A DNA stretch of 43,501 bases from contig JAJYTD010000036.1 in NCBI GenBank assembly GCA_021793235.1, forward strand, positions 1 through 43,501. The letters run 5' to 3'. The notes under the pieces are model-generated. The model did not search any database. It was given only the letters and a program-made list of their open reading frames with translations, and was not told where the DNA came from. Of the stretch, positions 32,474 through 40,534 are shown one piece after another; positions within the stretch are counted from its first letter, which is position 1, and every line of letters begins with the position of its first letter. The DNA is from Actinomycetes bacterium. Lineage in GTDB: Bacteria; Actinomycetota; Actinomycetes; Streptosporangiales; Streptosporangiaceae. Both the position numbers and the translations under genes were made by a program.

Positions 32474-33210
32474 CAGAAACAGGGCACACGGGAGAGAGCG
32501 CACGGGCGCGGCGTATCCGGGCGAACCTGGATGCCGTGCGGGAACGTATCGCCACCGCATGCGCCAAGGCGGGCAGGCCGGCAGACGATGTGACCATCAT
32601 CGCGGTCACAAAGACGTTCCCCGCCTCGGACGTGCGGATCCTGGCGGACCTCGGCGTGCTCGACGTGGGAGAGAACCGTGACCAGGAGGCGTCGCCGAAG
32701 GCCGACCACTGCCGTGACCTCCCTCTCACATGGCATTTCGTGGGCCAATTGCAGACCAACAAGGCCCGGTCCGTAGCCCGCTACGCCGACGTGGTCCATT
32801 CAGTGGACCGCGAGCGCCTGGTGCGCGCTCTGGGCGCGCGCAGCCGCGTTGAGAACCGCACGCTGGAATGCCTGGTTCAGGTGAATCTGGATACGGAGTC
32901 AGCCCCGGGGGTGATCGGGCCCCGGGGAGGAGCAGACCCGCGCGACGCCATGGCCGTCGCCGATGCCATCGCCGCCGAGGACGGACTCGAGCTGGGGGGC
33001 GTGATGGCGGTGGCGCCGCGCCAGGGCGACCCTGCCGAGGCGTTCGAGCGGCTATATGCGGTCGCTCAAGCGGTCCGTGGTCGCTACCCTCGGGCAAAGG
33101 TGGTTTCTGCGGGAATGAGCCGCGACCTCGAAGCGGCCATCGAGCAGGGGGCGACACATGTCCGCCTGGGGGCGGCGTTGCTCGATGATCGGGGCCCGAA
33201 CGTGGGGTAA
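32470..33210 (+). CDS. YggS-family pyridoxal phosphate homeostasis protein
   Basis: A 246-residue single-domain, alanine-racemase-N-fold protein that binds pyridoxal 5'-phosphate without known catalysis and helps keep free PLP and amino acids balanced. The PLP lysine lies in 'VTIIAVTKTFPASDVRIL' (near residue 45); 'VGENRDQEASPKAD', 'WHFVGQLQTNKARSVARYADVVHSVDRERLVRAL' and 'VSAGMSRDLEAAIEQGATHVRLGAALL' are family signatures. A Gly/Pro-rich insertion (VIGPRGGADPRD) lies in the middle. It is translationally coupled to pgeF and, as in most actinobacteria, stands directly before sepF. Confidence 0.93.
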   Translation: MTETGHTGESARARRIRANLDAVRERIATACAKAGRPADDVTIIAVTKTFPASDVRILADLGVLDVGENRDQEASPKADHCRDLPLTWHFVGQLQTNKARSVARYADVVHSVDRERLVRALGARSRVENRTLECLVQVNLDTESAPGVIGPRGGADPRDAMAVADAIAAEDGLELGGVMAVAPRQGDPAEAFERLYAVAQAVRGRYPRAKVVSAGMSRDLEAAIEQGATHVRLGAALLDDRGPNVG

Positions 33211-33228
33211 TGTCCCCACATGGACATT
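33209..33228. promoter_or_regulatory. Inverted repeat at the yggS stop
   Basis: AATGTCC (33209-33215) and GGACATT (33222-33228) form a perfect 7-base repeat with a 6-base centre. It could be an operator for sepF or a weak terminator; there is no U-tract. Confidence 0.4.
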
Positions 33229-33324
33229 GGCGCCCATCTGTCGAGTTCGCCCGTCCGGCGGACCGGGGCGGATACGGAATAGTCATCTGCGGTGCAGCAC
33301 CACAGGGACGACGGAGGACAAGAG

Positions 33325-33843
33325 ATGGCCGGCGCGATGCGCAAAATGGCGGTCTACCTCGGCCTCGTGGAGGACGACCGCTACGATCACCGCTATGCGG
33401 ATGAATATGATGACTTCGACGACTTCGAGGACAGTGTCGAAGACAGGCGCGATCGGGACTCCGACCTTGATCCTCGAGTCGACTCCGTGATGGATTCGGA
33501 TGACTACGCCATGTCCCCGGCGGAGCGGCGTGCCACCGGGCACAGCCTGCCCGCGACCGCCGATCTTGCGCGAATCACCACACTCCATCCGCGTACCTAC
33601 AACGAAGCGCGTACTATCGGAGAGCATTTCCGGGAAGGCATACCGGTGATCATGAACCTGACCGAGATGGTCGACAGCGACGCCAAGCGTCTCGTCGACT
33701 TCGCGGCCGGCTTGATCTTCGGTCTACATGGCAGTATCGAACGTGTGACCAACAAGGTGTTCTTGTTGTCCCCGGCCAATGTTGAGGTGACCGCTGAAGA
33801 CAAGGCACGGATCGCTGAGCGAGGGTTCTTCAATCAGAGTTAG
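33325..33843 (+). CDS. sepF: Cell division protein SepF
   Basis: A 172-residue membrane-associated FtsZ anchor. The amphipathic N-terminus '[17 protein letters not shown]' would bind the membrane; an acidic Asp/Arg-rich linker (about 20-55) follows; the C-terminal SepF fold runs from '[34 protein letters not shown]' to '[34 protein letters not shown]'. ATG 33325 is chosen for GGAGG seven bases upstream; earlier codons are unsupported. It should bind the FtsZ C-terminal peptide encoded nearby. Confidence 0.95.
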
Positions 33844-33882
33844 ATCATCACAGATGTCCAGAGATTGGGTCGGGGAACGACC

Positions 33883-34167
33883 GTGAGTATCGTCCAGACC
33901 GTGCTCTACATCATCCTGAACGTGTTCTTGCTGGTGTTGATAGGGCGGCTTGTCTTCGAACTCGTACAGGCGTTTGCTCGATCGTGGCGGCCGAGCGGGT
34001 TCGTTCTGGTTCTCGCGGAAACGGTCTACACAATCACCGACCCGCCGCTGAGGTTCTTGCGTCGGTTCATCAAGCCCATACGTTTGGGGAGTGTGGCGCT
34101 GGATCTGAGCTTCACCGTCCTCTTCTTCTTCGTGGTGATCCTCATCCAGATCGTGCAGTGGATCTAG
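33883..34167 (+). CDS. YggT-family membrane protein
   Basis: A 94-residue protein with two membrane helices ('TVLYIILNVFLLVLIGRLVFELV', about 5-27, and 'LDLSFTVLFFFVVILIQIVQWI', about 71-93) flanking a conserved loop 'VYTITDPPLRFLRRFIKPIRLG'. This is the YggT (CCB3-like) signature. The family sits next to sepF and divIVA in Gram-positive bacteria; a role in envelope or division is inferred from context only. GTG 33883 has CGGGGAA just upstream. Confidence 0.92.
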   Translation: MSIVQTVLYIILNVFLLVLIGRLVFELVQAFARSWRPSGFVLVLAETVYTITDPPLRFLRRFIKPIRLGSVALDLSFTVLFFFVVILIQIVQWI

Positions 34168-34239
34168 GTCGTTTGCGAGGCCATGGGCACTGGAACGGTA
34201 AGCTCCGGTTCCGATATGTGGTCTTGGTCATGATCCGGA

Positions 34240-34267
34240 TTGCCGCAAGGTCACGATCAGGTAGCGT
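34240..34267 (+). promoter_or_regulatory. Candidate divIVA promoter
   Basis: TTGCCG (34240-34245) and TAGCGT (34262-34267) with a 16-base spacer, placing the start site near 34274 and giving a leader of about 32 bases. Just upstream GGAAC and GTTCC (34192-34212) form an additional inverted repeat. Confidence 0.55.
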
Positions 34268-34305
34268 CCCTACGGACAGAGTCCAAGCGCGCCAAGGAGA
34301 CGAAC

Positions 34306-35199
34306 ATGCCGCTGACGCCCGCGGATGTGCGGAATAAGCAGTTCAGTACAACCCGGCTAAGGCCGGGATACGACGAAGAGGAGGTCGACGCTTTCCTCGA
34401 CGAGGTCGAGTCCGAACTCGACCGGTTGATTCAGGAGAACGAGGAACTGCGCGGCAAGCTCGCAGAGTGCCTGCGGGGCAAAGTGCCCAACGCCGGCATG
34501 CAGGACTTCCAGCAGCAGCAATCGCAGGAACAGCTTCCGCCCGAACCTCCGCCGCAGCCCGAGCCGGTCCGTCCGGAACCCGTTCCCCAGCCTCAGGCCA
34601 TGGAGCAGCAGCTCCCGGCGATGGCCGCCAGCATGGGCCTTCCGGGGTCGGAGGAGAACATGGACACCGCCGCGCGGGTCCTTGCTCTGGCTCAGCAGAC
34701 CGCGGACCAGGCCATCTCCGACGCTCGCCGGGAAGCCGACGAAACCCTCGGCCGCGCCCGCCACGAGGCCGACGACATCCTCGGCAAGGCCCGCCGCCAG
34801 GCCGAGCAGATCGTGAACGAGGCTCGTGCCCGCTCCGAGAACCTGGACCGGGACGCCCAGGAGCGCCACCGCCAGGTCATGGGCTCCCTCGTGCAGCAGC
34901 GCGAGGAGCTGGAACACAAGGTCAGCGAGCTGAAGGACTTCGAGCGCGAGTACCGCAGCCGGCTCAAGGACTACTTCGAGCGCCAGTTGCGCGAACTCGC
35001 CGAGGGCGCGAACGACTACAACGCCCCCAACCCCAACCCCAACACCACCGGCGGCTTCCAGACGATGGCACCGAGCGGGGGCTCACCGGCCATGCAGCAC
35101 GGGGGACCGGGCGGTGCGCCGGGGAACCCGTTCGCGCAGCCGGAGCCGGCCCAGCACGGCGGTTTCCACCCGGGCGAGGTACCCAACGACCGTCGTTGA
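34306..35199 (+). CDS. divIVA: DivIVA/Wag31 polar growth protein
   Basis: A 297-residue coiled-coil scaffold that marks poles and directs apical wall growth in actinobacteria. The N-terminal DivIVA domain is 'PLTPADVRNKQFSTTRLRPGYDEEEVDAFLDEVESELDRL' (1-43), followed by a Gln/Pro/Glu-rich linker (about 66-115), a long coiled coil (about 118-240, 'AISDARREADETLGRARHEADDILGKARRQAE...') and a Gly/Pro/Asn-rich tail. ATG 34306 has AGGAG 8 bases upstream; upstream in-frame codons fall on the promoter. Confidence 0.96.
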   Translation: MPLTPADVRNKQFSTTRLRPGYDEEEVDAFLDEVESELDRLIQENEELRGKLAECLRGKVPNAGMQDFQQQQSQEQLPPEPPPQPEPVRPEPVPQPQAMEQQLPAMAASMGLPGSEENMDTAARVLALAQQTADQAISDARREADETLGRARHEADDILGKARRQAEQIVNEARARSENLDRDAQERHRQVMGSLVQQREELEHKVSELKDFEREYRSRLKDYFERQLRELAEGANDYNAPNPNPNTTGGFQTMAPSGGSPAMQHGGPGGAPGNPFAQPEPAQHGGFHPGEVPNDRR

Positions 35200-35264
35200 C
35201 CGGCAGATCGCGGGCGCAGCGCACGCGAACAAGTCGATCCTTGTAGTAAAGGCTCTCTCTTTCC

Positions 35265-36599
35265 GTGTTCATCCTCAGCCTCGCCACCTGCGTGGCGGCT
35301 CTGGTCGTCATCGTGGTCGCGGTGGTGCTCGCAGAGACGACCCTGGTCTACATCGCTCTCGGGCTGGGCGGCATCGCCGCCCTCATGCTCGTGCTCGAAG
35401 TGGTGGGCTACCGCCCTTACCTGAGCGGTCAAGGACGGGAGGGAACCGAGAGGCGGGGGGCTTCTCCCGTAGCGGCATCACGGACGGACGGTTTGGGGAA
35501 GGCGTCCGTCCCACCCGCGGCGGCTGCGGGTCCGATGCCCGCCACCGGGGCCACTAAAGACCGTATGCCCGCGTCGGTTGATGAATCGACGCGGGCTACG
35601 GCGTTCGGGGAGTCGGAGCCGTGGAAGGTCCCGCGGTCCGCAGAGGAGCCGGAAACCCACGAGAGCGGCGGTGGAGCCTCCGCAGAGACGGCAGAGATGG
35701 CGGAGCCTCCGCCTACCGTGGGTCACCCGAAGGATGCGGAACCGGCCGAACCGGCCGAGGAGGAGCCCCAGGCAGCAGAGCCCGAACCGCCGGAGCCCGA
35801 GCCGTTGCCCGAGGTTTTCGCCGAGTCCGCGGTGGAGCCGCCGCCCGCCGGGGAGGTATCGGCTGCGGGCGGCAGAGCAGGACAGGGCGATCGCGGCGCC
35901 TCCGAGCCGGGCACCGGCGCCGACCCGGACCGTGATTCCAGCCACGGCCGGGACCCGGATCAGCTCTCGGGCACCGGCGTGGCCATGTCGGATCCAAAAG
36001 CCGAGGGCGTCGGCGATGAGGAAGCGGGTCCGCAGCCGCCCGGCGGTGCGGACGCGTTCGACGGTGATTCCTTCGGCTCCTTCGTCCAGCGGCTGCAGGA
36101 GGACGGCACGCCGAAGACGCGAGCGCCGCAGAGCGGCAGCGGAACAGACGATGCGGTGGTGGACGCGTTCGCCACCGCGGATGGGGCCGCGGAGCCCGAA
36201 GAGCCCGCGGAGCCCGGCTCTTCCGGCGGCGAGGACGGAATCGGGGCCGCCGATGACGCGTGGCCCGCAGCAGATGAGCCTGTCGGCGCGCCGGAGGCCG
36301 AAGCCGCGGACACGGATTTCGCGCCGGTTGAGAGCAGCGGCACCAGCGGCGCCATCGATGGCACAGACGATGCTGAGGAGGACGAGGAGGCCGGTGCGGC
36401 CGGTGTCTCTGCCGAGGCGGCCGGCCCCGCCGAGGACGCCGAGGACACGGCCGGGGGTAAAGCCGGGCACGAGGCCGGTGGTGCGCCGGACACAGAGGGC
36501 ACCGAAGCCGGCGAGACCACCGGGGCCGCACCGTCAGCAGCGCCCGAACCCGCCGAGGACCCGGACTCGGCCGTCGAGCGCCGACCCGACACGGACTGA
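35265..36599 (+). CDS. Unrecognised two-helix membrane protein with a long acidic tail
   Basis: A 444-residue protein with no family I recognise. Two adjacent membrane helices ('FILSLATCVAALVVIVVAVVLA', residues 2-23, and 'VYIALGLGGIAALMLVLEVVGY', about 28-49) are followed by roughly 390 residues of predicted-disordered, Glu/Asp/Ala/Pro/Gly-rich sequence with PEPEPLPE-type runs. One more ordered island is possible at 'DSFGSFVQRLQEDG' (near 268). GTG 35265 is preceded by AAAGG about 12 bases upstream. It lies 65 bases after divIVA on the same strand, where ileS directly follows divIVA in Streptomyces, and ends before a bidirectional terminator. The composition is biased but the reading frame is long and continuous, so I treat it as a real gene. 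Confidence 0.75.
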   Translation: MFILSLATCVAALVVIVVAVVLAETTLVYIALGLGGIAALMLVLEVVGYRPYLSGQGREGTERRGASPVAASRTDGLGKASVPPAAAAGPMPATGATKDRMPASVDESTRATAFGESEPWKVPRSAEEPETHESGGGASAETAEMAEPPPTVGHPKDAEPAEPAEEEPQAAEPEPPEPEPLPEVFAESAVEPPPAGEVSAAGGRAGQGDRGASEPGTGADPDRDSSHGRDPDQLSGTGVAMSDPKAEGVGDEEAGPQPPGGADAFDGDSFGSFVQRLQEDGTPKTRAPQSGSGTDDAVVDAFATADGAAEPEEPAEPGSSGGEDGIGAADDAWPAADEPVGAPEAEAADTDFAPVESSGTSGAIDGTDDAEEDEEAGAAGVSAEAAGPAEDAEDTAGGKAGHEAGGAPDTEGTEAGETTGAAPSAAPEPAEDPDSAVERRPDTD

Positions 36600-36658
36600 G
36601 CCCCCTTCGCAGGACCGTAGCCAGAGCCGCGGTGCCGCACCAGAACCGCGGGGATGTG

Positions 36659-36693
36659 CGAAGGCCGGGAGAGCGCCGCTCTCCCGGCCTTCG
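36659..36693. terminator. Bidirectional terminator between the acidic-tail gene and ileS
   Basis: CGAAGGCCGGGAGAGC (36659-36674) pairs perfectly with GCTCTCCCGGCCTTCG (36678-36693), a 16-base stem with a GCC loop. It lies between two convergent genes and should stop transcription from both. Confidence 0.85.
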
Positions 36694-36705
36694 TGCAGCG
36701 AGCCC

Positions 36706-39700
36706 TTAGGCGGACCGCGCCTTGCGCAGGGCCACAGTGACGCCGAACTCCTCCGAGGCCACCGTGTAGGCCGCGCCCTCAGGACGGCCCTCGGCGAACG
36801 TGCGGGCGAGCACCTCGCCTGCGATGGAATCCGCGTGCTCGGTCAGCGCCTGCCCGGTGGCCGTGTCGGTGGCCGACCACCACAGGTCGATGCGGTCGGA
36901 GACGTCCAGCCCACTGGACTTGCGGGCATCCTGCACCAGCCGGATCATCTCGCGGGCCAGCCCGGCACGCTGCAGTTCGGGCGTGATGTCCAGGTCGAGC
37001 GCAACCGTCTCGGCGGCCTCCGACGCCACGGTCCATCCCTCGCGCGGCTGCTCGGTGATCAGCAGCTCCTCGGCGCTGATCTCGACCGGCTCGCCCTCGA
37101 CCCGCACGTGCGCCCACCCCGTGGAGCGCACCTGATCCACCAGGGACGCCGGGTCGGCTTCCCGTACGGCATTGGCCACCAGCGGCGTGCGCTCGGCGAA
37201 CCGCTTGCCCAAAGCGCGGAAGTTGGGCTTGACCACGTAGTCCACCAGGTCCCCGCCGACCGCCGACAGGGGGTCGAGCTGCATGACGTTGAGCTCCTCG
37301 GTGACCTGCGCGCGCAACTGCTCCGGAAGCCGGTCGAAGCCGGCCGCGCCCACCAGGGCCCGGGACAGCGGCTGGCGGGTGCGCACCCCCGAATCGACCC
37401 GGGCGGCCCGGCCCAGCTCCACCAGGCGGCGGGTGAGCGCCATCTGCTCGGACAGCTCGGTGTCGATGAGGTCCTCGCGTACCGCGGGCCACGCGGACAG
37501 GTGCACCGACTCCGGTGCCTCGGGCCTGCGCAGCGCCGCCCACACGTGGTCGGTGAGGAACGGCACCAGCGGAGCCATCACCTGGGTGAGCGTCTCCAGC
37601 GCCTCGAACAGCGTGGCGAACGCGGACGCTCCCTCGGATGTCTGCGCCCCGGCCCAGAAACGGCGGCGGGAACGGCGTACGTACCAGTTGGACAGGTCGT
37701 CGACGAACGCGGTGAGCAACCGCCCGGCCGAGGTGGTGTCGAACGCCTCTAGGGCCTCGTCGACCCCTTTGACCACCCGGTTGAGCTCGGAGAGCAGCCA
37801 CCGGTCCAGCAGCGGGCGGTCGGCCGGGGCCGGTGCGTCCGCCAGTCGGCCGTGGTGCCAGGTCTCGCCCGCGTTGGCGTAGAGCGTGAAGAAGGAGACC
37901 GTGCTGTAGTAGGTCAGCAGGACCTTGCGGACGATCTCCTCCAGGGCCGCGTGTCCCACGCGGCGCGGCGCCCACGGCGAACCGCTGGCCGCCATGAACC
38001 AGCGCAGTGCGTCAGCGCCGTGCCGCTCCATGACCTCCATCGGCTCCAGGACGTTGCCGAGGTGCTTGCTCATCTTGCGGCCGTCCTCGGCCAGGATGTG
38101 CCCCAGGCAGACGACGTTCTCGTAGGAGTTGCGCCCGAAGACCAGGGTGCTGACGGCCATGAGCGAGTAGAACCAGCCGCGGGTCTGGTCGATGGCCTCA
38201 CAGATGTACTGGGCGGGGAAATTCGCCTGGAACTTCTCCTCGTTGCGGTGCGGCGCCCCCCACTGGGCGAACGGCATGGAACCGGAGTCGAACCATGCGT
38301 CGATCACCTCAGGGACACGGCGCGCCTCGGCTCCGCAATCGGGGCAGCCGAACACCACGTCGTCGACATAGGGCCGGTGCGGATCGAGTGCGCTGAGATC
38401 GCGGCCGGCGAGTTCGCCCAGTTCGGCGAGTGACCCGACGACCGTGAAATGCTCGTCAGCGCAGTGCCAGACCGGTAGCGGGGTGCCCCAGTAGCGGCTG
38501 CGGGACAGCGCCCAGTCGATGTTGTTGCGCAGCCACTCGCCGTAGCGGCCCTCCTTGACGTTCTCCGGGAACCAGTTGGTCCGGGCGTTCTGCCGCAGCA
38601 ACTGCTCCTTCATCGCCGTCGTCTTGATGTACCAGGACGGCAGCGCGTAGTAGAGAAGCGGGGTGTGGCAGCGCCAGCAGTGCGGGTAGCTGTGCTCATA
38701 GGACTGGCTGCGAAACAGCAGGCCCCGATCGTCGAGATCAGCGGTCAGCGTCGTGTCGGCCGTCTTGAAGAACACCCCGCCCACCAGGTCCAGGCCGGAT
38801 TCGAACGTGCCGTCGGCGCGCACCGGATTGACGACGGGCAGCCCGTAGGCGCGGGCGACCGCCATGTCGTCGGCGCCGAACGCGGGAGACTGGTGCACCA
38901 GGCCGGTACCGTCGTCCACCGTTACGTAGTCGGCGAGCACGATGAAATGCGCGGGCTCCTCGAAGCCGACCAGTTCGAACGGGCGCTGATACGTCCAGCG
39001 CTCCATTTCGGCGCCTTCGAAGCGTTCCCCGGTGAGTTCCCACCCCTCACCCAGAACGGTGGTGACCAGCGTCTCGGCCAACACCAGCCGCTCAGTGCCG
39101 TCCGTGGCGACGACATAGCCCACGTCGGGGTGCACCGCGACGGCGGTGTTGGACACCAGTGTCCACGGTGTCGTCGTCCATACCAGCAGCGAGGTCGGGC
39201 GTTCAGGGGCGGCCAGCGGGCCCGACGTGATCGGGAACCGCACATAGACCGACGGGTCGACGACGGTCTCATACCCCTGCGCCAACTCGTGGTCGGAGAG
39301 GGTCGTGCCACAGCGCGGGCAGTAGGGGCTGATCCGGTAATCGCGGACGAGCAGGCCCTTCTCCCAGATCGTCTTCAGCGCCCACCACGCCGACTCCACG
39401 TACTCCGGGTCCATGGTGCGGTAGGCCTCATCCATGTTCACCCAGTAGCCCATGCGCCGAGTCAGCTCCGTGAAGGCGTCGACGTTGCGCAGGACCGACT
39501 CGCGGCAGCGGGCGTTGAACTCGGCGACCCCGAACTCCTCGATATCCTTCTTGCCGCTCAGCCCGAGTTCCTTTTCGACCGCGACCTCCACGGGCAGGCC
39601 GTGACAGTCCCAGCCGGCCTTGCGGTCGACGTGGAACCCCTTCATCGTCTTGAAGCGGGGGAACACATCCTTGAACACGCGGGCCTCGACATGGTGCACT

Positions 39701-39903
39701 CCCGGCTGCCCGTTGGCGGTCGGGGGACCCTCATAGAAGACCCAGCTCGGACCGCCCCGGGTCTGCTCCAGGGAGCGCTCGAACACCTTGTGCTCGGCCC
39801 AGCGCTCCAGCACGTCGCGCTCCATCCCCGGCAGGTCCACCTGGGCGGGGAGAGCGGGAAGCGAGCGGGATGCGGGGCGTTGCTCATCCGACAACGAAGG
39901 CAC
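36706..39903 (-). CDS. ileS: Isoleucyl-tRNA synthetase (IleS2-like)
   Basis: A 1065-residue class Ia synthetase charging tRNA-Ile. The HIGH-equivalent site is 'PPTANGQPGVHHVEARVFKDVF' with GVHH at residues 68-71; the KMSKS loop is 'GRKMSKHLGN'. The CP1 editing domain is intact ('LLVWTTTPWTLVSNTA' and 'GLVHQSPAFGADD'). The length, the GxHH form and KMSKH indicate the eukaryote-like IleS2 type, which tolerates mupirocin in characterised members. GTG 39903 is used; TTG 39894, eight bases after AAGAGG, is a good alternative. The frame open further upstream is the T-box leader, not protein. Confidence 0.96.
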   Translation of the reverse strand: MPSLSDEQRPASRSLPALPAQVDLPGMERDVLERWAEHKVFERSLEQTRGGPSWVFYEGPPTANGQPGVHHVEARVFKDVFPRFKTMKGFHVDRKAGWDCHGLPVEVAVEKELGLSGKKDIEEFGVAEFNARCRESVLRNVDAFTELTRRMGYWVNMDEAYRTMDPEYVESAWWALKTIWEKGLLVRDYRISPYCPRCGTTLSDHELAQGYETVVDPSVYVRFPITSGPLAAPERPTSLLVWTTTPWTLVSNTAVAVHPDVGYVVATDGTERLVLAETLVTTVLGEGWELTGERFEGAEMERWTYQRPFELVGFEEPAHFIVLADYVTVDDGTGLVHQSPAFGADDMAVARAYGLPVVNPVRADGTFESGLDLVGGVFFKTADTTLTADLDDRGLLFRSQSYEHSYPHCWRCHTPLLYYALPSWYIKTTAMKEQLLRQNARTNWFPENVKEGRYGEWLRNNIDWALSRSRYWGTPLPVWHCADEHFTVVGSLAELGELAGRDLSALDPHRPYVDDVVFGCPDCGAEARRVPEVIDAWFDSGSMPFAQWGAPHRNEEKFQANFPAQYICEAIDQTRGWFYSLMAVSTLVFGRNSYENVVCLGHILAEDGRKMSKHLGNVLEPMEVMERHGADALRWFMAASGSPWAPRRVGHAALEEIVRKVLLTYYSTVSFFTLYANAGETWHHGRLADAPAPADRPLLDRWLLSELNRVVKGVDEALEAFDTTSAGRLLTAFVDDLSNWYVRRSRRRFWAGAQTSEGASAFATLFEALETLTQVMAPLVPFLTDHVWAALRRPEAPESVHLSAWPAVREDLIDTELSEQMALTRRLVELGRAARVDSGVRTRQPLSRALVGAAGFDRLPEQLRAQVTEELNVMQLDPLSAVGGDLVDYVVKPNFRALGKRFAERTPLVANAVREADPASLVDQVRSTGWAHVRVEGEPVEISAEELLITEQPREGWTVASEAAETVALDLDITPELQRAGLAREMIRLVQDARKSSGLDVSDRIDLWWSATDTATGQALTEHADSIAGEVLARTFAEGRPEGAAYTVASEEFGVTVALRKARSA

Positions 39904-40165
39904 CTCTTTTCCATCAGGGATGATCACCTGACGGAGGGACGAGGCCGCAGGCCCCGCGGTACCACCCTCCTTGGGCGACGCCTGATGCGCGCCCCGCTCA
40001 ATTGCCGTTGCTGCCGGTTCTACTGGGCCGCACGCCGACCGGCGCGCCGGGGCCGTTCTTCCGGCGGCTCCGGGGTGATCTTCCCGACGGGCATGCCCCC
40101 GGGCTTCCACCGTCCCCGGGTCGCTCTCGGCTGTGTCCGGCGGTACTCCTCCCCATCCACGCCTT
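39904..40165 (-). ncRNA. T-box riboswitch of ileS (short-stem actinobacterial type)
   Basis: On the minus strand the T-box core AGGGTGGTACCGCG lies at 39968-39955. It forms the antisequestrator bulge, GGAGGG pairing with CCCTCC (39938-39933 region) across GGCC/GGCC. Upstream, AGTA (40147-40144) and GAA (near 40082) make a loop-E pair, and the triplet just after it, ATC (40079-40077), is an isoleucine specifier codon. No U-run terminator follows, so control should be at translation initiation, as described for actinobacterial ileS T-boxes: uncharged tRNA-Ile would free the ribosome-binding site. Confidence 0.88.
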
Positions 40166-40176
40166 GCTGTGACACG

Positions 40177-40230
40177 AGGATAACCCAATCCGGCCCCGCC
40201 TTCCCGTGGTTTTCGGGGCCGGGCATACTA
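40177..40230 (-). promoter_or_regulatory. Candidate ileS promoter elements
   Basis: Two minus-strand -10-like hexamers precede the T-box: TATCCT (40182-40177) and TAGTAT (40230-40225). Neither has a good -35 at standard distance. The first would start the RNA near 40170, just before the T-box. Confidence 0.35.
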
Positions 40231-40270: not shown

Positions 40271-40534
40271 ATGGGCGAGGCGGAGCGGTCGGGGAGCGTA
40301 CTGGTGACACTGCCCGACCGGGAGGACGCAGAGGAGCTGGCCGAGCAGCTGCTGGGGCAGGGATACGAGCCGTGCCTGGTCCACCGCGACATGCTCGCGG
40401 GCGAGGACGACGCGGAGGACGCCGACTGGGTGATCGAGGTCCGCACCGGCCCGCACGGGGGCCCGGCGGTATTCGACGAACCCCACCTCTCGGTCCTCGC
40501 CGAGGACTACGGAGGATTTGCAACGGCCGGATAG
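40271..40534 (+). CDS. Small acidic hypothetical protein
   Basis: An 87-residue acidic soluble protein, 'SGSVLVTLPDREDAEELAEQLLGQGYEPCLVHRDMLAGEDD' then 'ADWVIEVRTGPHGGPAVFDEPHLSVLAEDYGGFA'. The beta-alpha-beta pattern suggests a small ferredoxin-like fold similar in outline to RraB/DUF2007-type proteins, but I do not recognise the family. ATG 40271 has GGGGGC about 5 bases upstream. It is transcribed divergently from the ileS T-box. Confidence 0.7.
   Translation: MGEAERSGSVLVTLPDREDAEELAEQLLGQGYEPCLVHRDMLAGEDDAEDADWVIEVRTGPHGGPAVFDEPHLSVLAEDYGGFATAG

Follow-up and report, generated by a model that had tools for sequence, protein, structure and literature searches.

A DivIVA-linked membrane protein of the Nocardiopsaceae with a candidate structured RNA inside its coding sequence

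Directly behind divIVA in the window (the whole stretch of 43,501 nucleotides that was analysed) lies a gene for a membrane protein with a long acidic tail, and folded into the codons of that tail are two hairpins, here called HP1 and HP2. Comparison with homologues makes it reasonably probable that the gene encodes a membrane protein linked to DivIVA and that its mRNA holds, within the coding sequence, a cis-acting element for post-transcriptional control. A sequence-only reading of the same DNA had proposed the protein as a new component of division or polarity; its interpretation is partly supported, having missed both a widespread family and the RNA hairpin.

The gene, its neighbours and its family

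34306 to 35199, forward strand: divIVA (wag31-type), matching PF05103 at E 2.7e-20 and NF050102 at E 6.1e-52
35248 to 35252, forward strand: AAAGG, the likely ribosome-binding site of the gene
35265 to 36599, forward strand: the gene, 444 aa from a GTG start, for a membrane protein with a long acidic tail, predicted to be disordered
36655 to 36697, unstranded: hairpin with a 20-bp stem between the gene and ileS (fold of 36600-36720, z -3.44)
36706 to 40188, reverse strand: ileS, the convergent neighbour, named from its translation, with similar ORFs in relatives

Rival open frames of 226-724 aa overlap ORF 35265-36599 on both strands, so that in GC-rich DNA its length is weak proof. Nor does its codon-position GC (0.79/0.60/0.79) settle the matter; it is conservation that decides, and the ORF is genuine. 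The coordinates, the 444 residues and the hydrophobic N-terminus described in the sequence-only reading were all confirmed, as was its acidic tail of some 390 residues (389 aa at residues 56-444, net charge -68). With starts as placed, GTG opens the gene in 30 of 30 homologous loci, and AAGG lies at most 25 nt upstream in 27 of them, the exceptions having GAAAG (L015 and L016) or GAGG (L031). The ribosome site sits within a gagt(a/g)aaggctctc-like block of the leader (35233-35264), which recurs in many of the 30 homologues (L008-L036) and perhaps exceeds the needs of a ribosome site alone.

Upstream, divIVA probably starts at MPLTPADVRNKQF (34306), where the ORF list has 34240, and it scores 177 bits with NF050102, below the model cut-off of 260. 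The 65 bp between divIVA and the gene hold no structure beyond chance (fold z 0.30). Because this gap is unstructured and a hairpin parts the gene from the convergent ileS, the two genes are likely to be co-transcribed. The hairpin at 36655-36697, which has no T run and does not appear in the terminator-scan output, is possibly a terminator common to the gene and ileS. On the far side of ileS, an 87-aa ORF (40271-40534) stands before a DksA/TraR-type gene and has no family match above cut-off.

No Pfam or NCBIfam model matches the gene product up to E 1, in keeping with the earlier view that no family could be recognised. The N-terminal profile search which that view had proposed as a check was productive: of 200 genomes in the family to which the window belongs, 68 have a match to the first 72 residues (E 0.01 or better), and the best 30 of the 68 loci, examined with their flanks, all lie directly downstream of divIVA. 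Alignment A1 was built from 20 of the 30. Named loci of the window's clade (35, found partly via the TDGLGK pattern considered below) belong to Nocardiopsis, Streptomonospora, Thermobifida, Marinactinospora and relatives. When the first ~83 residues served as a profile, short ORFs (109-163 aa) in family f6 matched as well. We call f6 Mycobacterium-like, since the nine genomes with a DivIVA over the Wag31-model cut-off are all f6; the f6 loci inspected adjoin divIVA, with the exception of G508.

With a broader profile, A2, and a threshold of E 1e-6, the matches in the class rose to 107 of 394 genomes, 41 of them from the window's own family, which is absent among the unmatched genomes listed; the window gene, itself a row of A2, matches at E 2.0e-18. 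Of 82 genomes with a profile match whose neighbourhood was inspected, 78 have a same-strand divIVA upstream at a distance below 300 nt, about a dozen of the stretches having been taken around divIVA, where the whole-genome A2 matches fall at the same place. Conservation of the divIVA neighbourhood, another check that had been proposed, is therefore found well beyond related genera, and it holds with ileS convergent, co-oriented or outside the stretch. Among the 107 strong matches, 80 were inspected for neighbours and 77 were adjacent to divIVA, leaving G508 (1,600 nt away), G475 (705 nt) and G555 (no divIVA found, near a contig end); of two weaker matches also inspected, G335 adjoins divIVA and G382 has no divIVA found. 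At the level of the phylum, the profile matches 28 of 198 genomes at E 1e-4, and 22 of the 28 belong to other classes. Furthermore, profile-profile comparison links the Nocardiopsaceae proteins to the Mycobacterium-type at 91% and to a Zn-type at 98%, and the latter two to each other at 98% (the Zn-type set including L171, which is without intact ligands), against at most 5.1% for YggT and SepX control profiles with the two-TM sub-alignments.

The family is not universal. Among 40 stretches from a diverse set of genomes, most of them centred on divIVA, a two-TM ORF stands downstream beside divIVA in f1, f6, f12, f16, f18, f24, f33, f39 and f48, and none was found downstream of divIVA in f20 (which we take to be Streptomyces-like), f21, f28 and f30, among others. 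In three f20 genomes divIVA and ileS are adjacent, as had been claimed for Streptomyces, and convergent, and no ORF of 60 aa or more with a TM segment lies between them on the same strand.

On these matches, the first ~55 residues, that is the membrane segment, define an actinobacterial family encoded directly after divIVA, and the window gene is the clade-specific (Nocardiopsaceae) form of this widespread family, for which there seems to be no existing name. It is gene order that suggests the link of the family to DivIVA, and the protein might be a bystander, a passenger of the operon with no functional tie to its neighbour: its absence from Streptomyces-like and several other families marks it as dispensable for polar growth generally. 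A mere passenger, however, would hardly be expected to stay beside divIVA in those 78 of 82 inspected genomes, across many families, while ileS moves or turns. We consider a passenger unlikely, and a role as DivIVA partner plausible on the genomic evidence.

The protein and its likeness to known systems

35268 to 35408, forward strand: residues 2-48, the membrane segment common to the whole family, with AETT between two hydrophobic stretches
36069 to 36101, forward strand: tail motif SFGSFVQRLQ, a predicted helix (270-279, pLDDT ~79)

AlphaFold2 models residues 1-50 of the window protein with a pLDDT of 93-97 and gives 303 of the 444 residues a value below 50; the tail is predicted to be disordered. 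Residues 2-48 are drawn as a single helix, not a hairpin. As a hydrophobic helix of 47 residues misfits a bilayer, we infer a two-helix hairpin; in the model of the Zn-type relative L169 there are two helices, 2-21 and 26-59. In all 21 aligned relatives a lysine or arginine stands no more than 15 residues past TM2, and in 19 of the 21 the loop is free of both, a charge pattern that argues for a cytoplasmic location of the tail and both termini. The surface role suggested in the sequence-only reading is thus unlikely, since these charges would put the acidic tail in the cytoplasm.

Within the tail, SFxAFVxxL occurs in 17 of 51 homologues and in none of the shuffles, and FxYx(I/V/A)P in 20 of 51, exceeding shuffles. 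Both look like true peptide motifs, as their codons vary synonymously. In Zn-type relatives (L132, L133, L134, L168, L169 and L170) the tail bears an Ada-like YHxxxC...CxxC domain, in some cases two, with H/C/C/C invariant in 12 of 12 aligned. This domain weakly resembles Ada (PF02805) by sequence and by Foldseek, which returned two weak Ada matches only for the Zn-type model; a PDB sequence search with the Zn-type alignment found Ada chains at E 0.02-0.04 and an unrelated chain at E 0.03, and E. coli Ada (1u8b) is the closest structure among 12 chains (Z 5.0, rmsd 1.9 over 48 residues). It differs in that all Zn-type Pfam scores fall below the gathering cut-off, and the window protein is without the domain. 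The two-TM profile found nothing better than E 0.15 in a PDB sequence search.

Among known systems, GlpR/SepX of actinobacteria is alike in being anchored in the membrane and in exposing an acidic, disordered region to the cytoplasm. GlpR differs in its TM helices, of which three are predicted, and in having another IDR that is basic; it binds Wag31 with a Kd of 43 uM and the N-terminal DivIVA domain of Wag31 with one of 14.9 uM (PMC10522489). Kinship, hinted at by matches of ~20 bits between two relatives and NF050099 (SepX/GlpR, cut-off 150), was rejected, as hhalign gave at most 5.1%, like the controls (the SepX alignment containing one wrongly picked ORF row, L242). The window protein itself has no match to NF050099, and the NCBIfam models of PspM and SCO2097 match relatives similarly weakly. 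The only SepX/GlpR match in the window's own genome (G000:C30:315-806, E 3.5e-15, below cut-off) is a separate, divergent SepX/GlpR-like gene.

Another likely counterpart is Rv2144c, the M. tuberculosis gene after wag31 and, judged by gene order, a probable orthologue. The comparison runs through the position of the gene in Mycobacterium-like genomes. Like the window protein, the Mycobacterium-like relatives have two TM segments and an acidic tail, are encoded directly after divIVA and share the 91% profile match, but their g30 proteins are shorter (106-163 aa among the matches listed), with tails of about 50-110 residues against about 390, and no HP1 match was found in the Mycobacterium-like family. 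Rv2144c is tabulated among exported proteins whose expression is induced in vivo (PMC5405230), a listing that, if Rv2144c is the orthologue, may conflict with a cytoplasmic tail. In openly licensed PMC literature this was the one paper found for Rv2144c, and none was found for MSMEG_4216.

Two hairpins within the coding sequence

35482 to 35511, forward strand: HP1, 9-bp stem with loop GTTTGGGGAAGG, encoding TDGLGKASV, in 51 of 51 distinct homologues
35513 to 35531, forward strand: variable short hairpin between HP1 and HP2 (acccgcgg-cgg-ctgcgggt), also in the regional fold
35567 to 35596, forward strand: HP2, 13-bp stem gcccgcgtcggtt-GATG-aatcgacgcgggc, the window's form of a CCCGCACCGG-n8-CCGGTGCGGG hairpin

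TDGLGKASV, or a close variant, occurs in every one of 51 distinct Nocardiopsaceae homologues (from 65 loci, 14 having been dropped for sharing the same first 150 residues), and HP1 is present in 30 of 30 loci retrieved without HP1 in the query. A peptide motif was the first reading of this stretch, dropped in view of identical nucleotides across genera: in a set of 41 genomes, a DNA pattern for TDGLGKASV had a single match in each of 6, and the 26-mers of four of these were identical. The codons are near-frozen across the 51 homologues (ACG 51, TTG 50, GGG 51, AAG 51, TCC 50), including a rare TTG which elsewhere in the same ORFs makes up 3.3% of leucine codons. Mean identity at codon positions 1/2/3 is 0.961/0.983/0.969 in HP1, compared with 0.866/0.924/0.687 in the best-conserved membrane stretch (7 of 51 omitted as lacking the anchor) and 0.48-0.50 at the third positions of the flanks. 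Seven of the nine third positions in HP1 are invariant, and it is the first and second that change (giving D→G, G→D/E, A→S and S→P).

Compensatory base changes keep the HP1 helix, as is asked of a structured cis-acting RNA. They affect three base pairs, and none of 500 shuffles attains the covariation score; one pair compensates through purely synonymous R/V codons (G-C 45, A-T 4, T-A 2; n=51). Paired cells amount to 99.8%, against at most 56.2% in slid controls. From the 51 homologues, 49 distinct 45-mers were aligned (A3 used 29 of the 51). The 12-nt loop reads (G/A)(T/A/G)(T/G)TGGGGAAG(G/T), with 8 of 12 positions invariant and a possible 2-bp inner helix.

HP2, too, has a covarying stem. 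What appears in the protein as a PAPxxxPVR motif is at the DNA level the inverted repeat CCCGCACCGG-n8-CCGGTGCGGG, beginning 69-147 nt after the first TDGLGKASV codon. It is present in 43 of 51 homologues and missing or degenerate in 8 (an initial 44 became 43 when the stem of L097, misplaced and out of phase, was excluded), while codon-shuffled tails yield HP2-like stems in 3-12 of 51. The window species has another HP2 sequence and another peptide, and the same hairpin shape.

Both stretches could still be short linear peptide motifs that bind DivIVA or a partner, their nucleotide conservation being incidental, as might be argued from the TDGLGKASV pattern in 51 of 51, from the single reading phase that the hairpins hold and from the genuine look of the other tail motifs, SFxAFVxxL and FxYxIP. 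Selection on peptides, however, does not account for third positions that are fixed while first and second vary, for changes that track base pairing down to purely synonymous compensations, or for a window HP2 whose peptide differs and whose shape does not. We hold this explanation to be very unlikely; the best-conserved stretch of the tail would be an RNA hairpin rather than a protein feature, though TDGLGKASV may have a peptide role as well.

The pairs that deviate from Watson-Crick geometry bear on whether the structure belongs to RNA or to DNA. In the 43 rows of HP2, 405 pairs are Watson-Crick and 23 are sense G-U, A-C is absent and there are 2 other mismatches (one each in L017 and L098; the excluded L097 has two A-C), and HP1 has 5 sense G-U and no A-C, so that the two hairpins together hold 28 sense G-U and no A-C with the L097 row excluded, under scoring symmetric for both strands and in related homologues whose wobbles and covariations are not independent events. 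Because the wobbles are sense-strand G-U and never A-C outside L097, they point to the mRNA as the molecule that folds. The HP1-HP2 region folds at z -4.18 on the sense and z -3.65 on the antisense strand against shuffles; stems of at least 8 bp near 35513-35531 are found only in a minority of homologues. As inverted repeats, one of them with a single strong copy at a fixed locus, HP1 and HP2 might alternatively be operator-like palindromes in duplex DNA, bound by a transcription factor or a chromosome organiser, but a symmetric duplex site would not predict an asymmetric centre among the most conserved parts, nor one-sided changes which, apart from L097 and the two HP2 mismatches, all fall on the sense G-U side. 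To such an operator we give a slim chance. Neither are the hairpins intrinsic terminators, the terminator scan being blank there and neither stem preceding a T run.

HP1 is a feature of this gene in this clade. A covariance model (R1) found one strong match each (E 3.5e-7 or better) in 37 of 180 family genomes, all 37 adjoining the match of the gene's first 72 residues in the same genome, and in a scan of 296 genomes of the class the 17 that had HP1 all came from the family of the window, with one further, weak match at E 0.005; both scans used strict filters and may have missed weak copies. The exact HP1 pattern occurs in 105 of 269 loci, once each and always in this gene, most loci sampled being of this gene. 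No second strong copy was found in the window or in the family and class genomes scanned, and the exact pattern was absent from IMG/VR viral contigs. Of the next-best matches three were examined: G179 (E 3.6e-5) and G116 have different loops and were put down to chance, as was G148 (E 0.0019), whose loop is partly similar (TTGGGGGAA) but which is intergenic and at another locus; this last (L307 2040-2083) is a terminator-like hairpin with loop TTGGGGGAA, away from divIVA. Rfam gave four matches to 33000-37500 up to E 5, all below gathering. In other families no common hairpin of the HP1 or HP2 type was found; the loci compared were 15 of Mycobacterium-like genomes, 16 of the Zn-type in f1 and 8 more, with some genomes supplying more than one locus. 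HP2-type inverted repeats occur elsewhere in G001, G002, G005, G011 and G014, genomes without a strong HP1. Separately, 9-11 bp inverted repeats (for example gctggtgac/gtcaccagc) lie in the TM-coding part of the Mycobacterium-like relatives L137, L182, L184, L195 and L197, where they may be codon repeats or another RNA element.

How the hairpins and the protein may act

Beyond terminators and operators, a structured mRNA can act on the ribosome that reads it. HP1 begins 9-41 codons past the end of TM2 (measured in 44 of 51), a spacing comparable with the length of the ribosomal tunnel, and the stems are strong, as might suit a translational pause for insertion of the membrane hairpin, or else a programmed frameshift. 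A pause, however, has no need of a conserved loop, and the spacing varies more than fourfold; we regard such a role as quite unlikely. As the conserved loop sits on a covarying stem, we infer instead a sequence-specific reader of HP1. HP1 would be bound by a trans-acting factor (an RNA-binding protein, an RNase or a small RNA), and the HP1-HP2 segment would set the stability or translation of the divIVA-orf message post-transcriptionally. In actinobacteria, cleavage of a message by RNase III is a known way of regulation, as with adpA mRNA in the differentiation of Streptomyces, where we found no conserved loop element of the kind seen in HP1 described (PMC2936110). A bolder reading makes HP1-HP2 an address label in the divIVA-operon mRNA, recognised by protein or RNA, that couples the place and time of synthesis of the protein, and perhaps of DivIVA, to the growing tip; it would then be a coding-region cis element for the localised or pause-coupled synthesis of a polarity component, to which we would grant a small chance.

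The protein itself would be anchored by two helices, with both its ends in the cytoplasm, where its tail, which is specific to the lineage, would also lie. It may work with DivIVA at the membrane and offer this tail to partners at the pole or septum, much as GlpR, the nearest functional analogue, does for Wag31.

Judged by titles and the beginnings of abstracts in openly licensed PMC literature, no report of the gene or its hairpins was found, and an intragenic structured-RNA candidate inside a widespread DivIVA-linked gene appears to be new. It also carries a general caution: a structured RNA in coding sequence can mimic a conserved peptide motif, and codon-level analysis tells the two apart. 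For the bacteria concerned, HP1-HP2 is likely to be a point at which a growth operon is controlled post-transcriptionally, and its conserved loop is a ready bait for the factor that would read it. The gene keeps its tie to divIVA in many families, Mycobacterium-like genomes among them, and is a direct candidate for a partner in polar growth.
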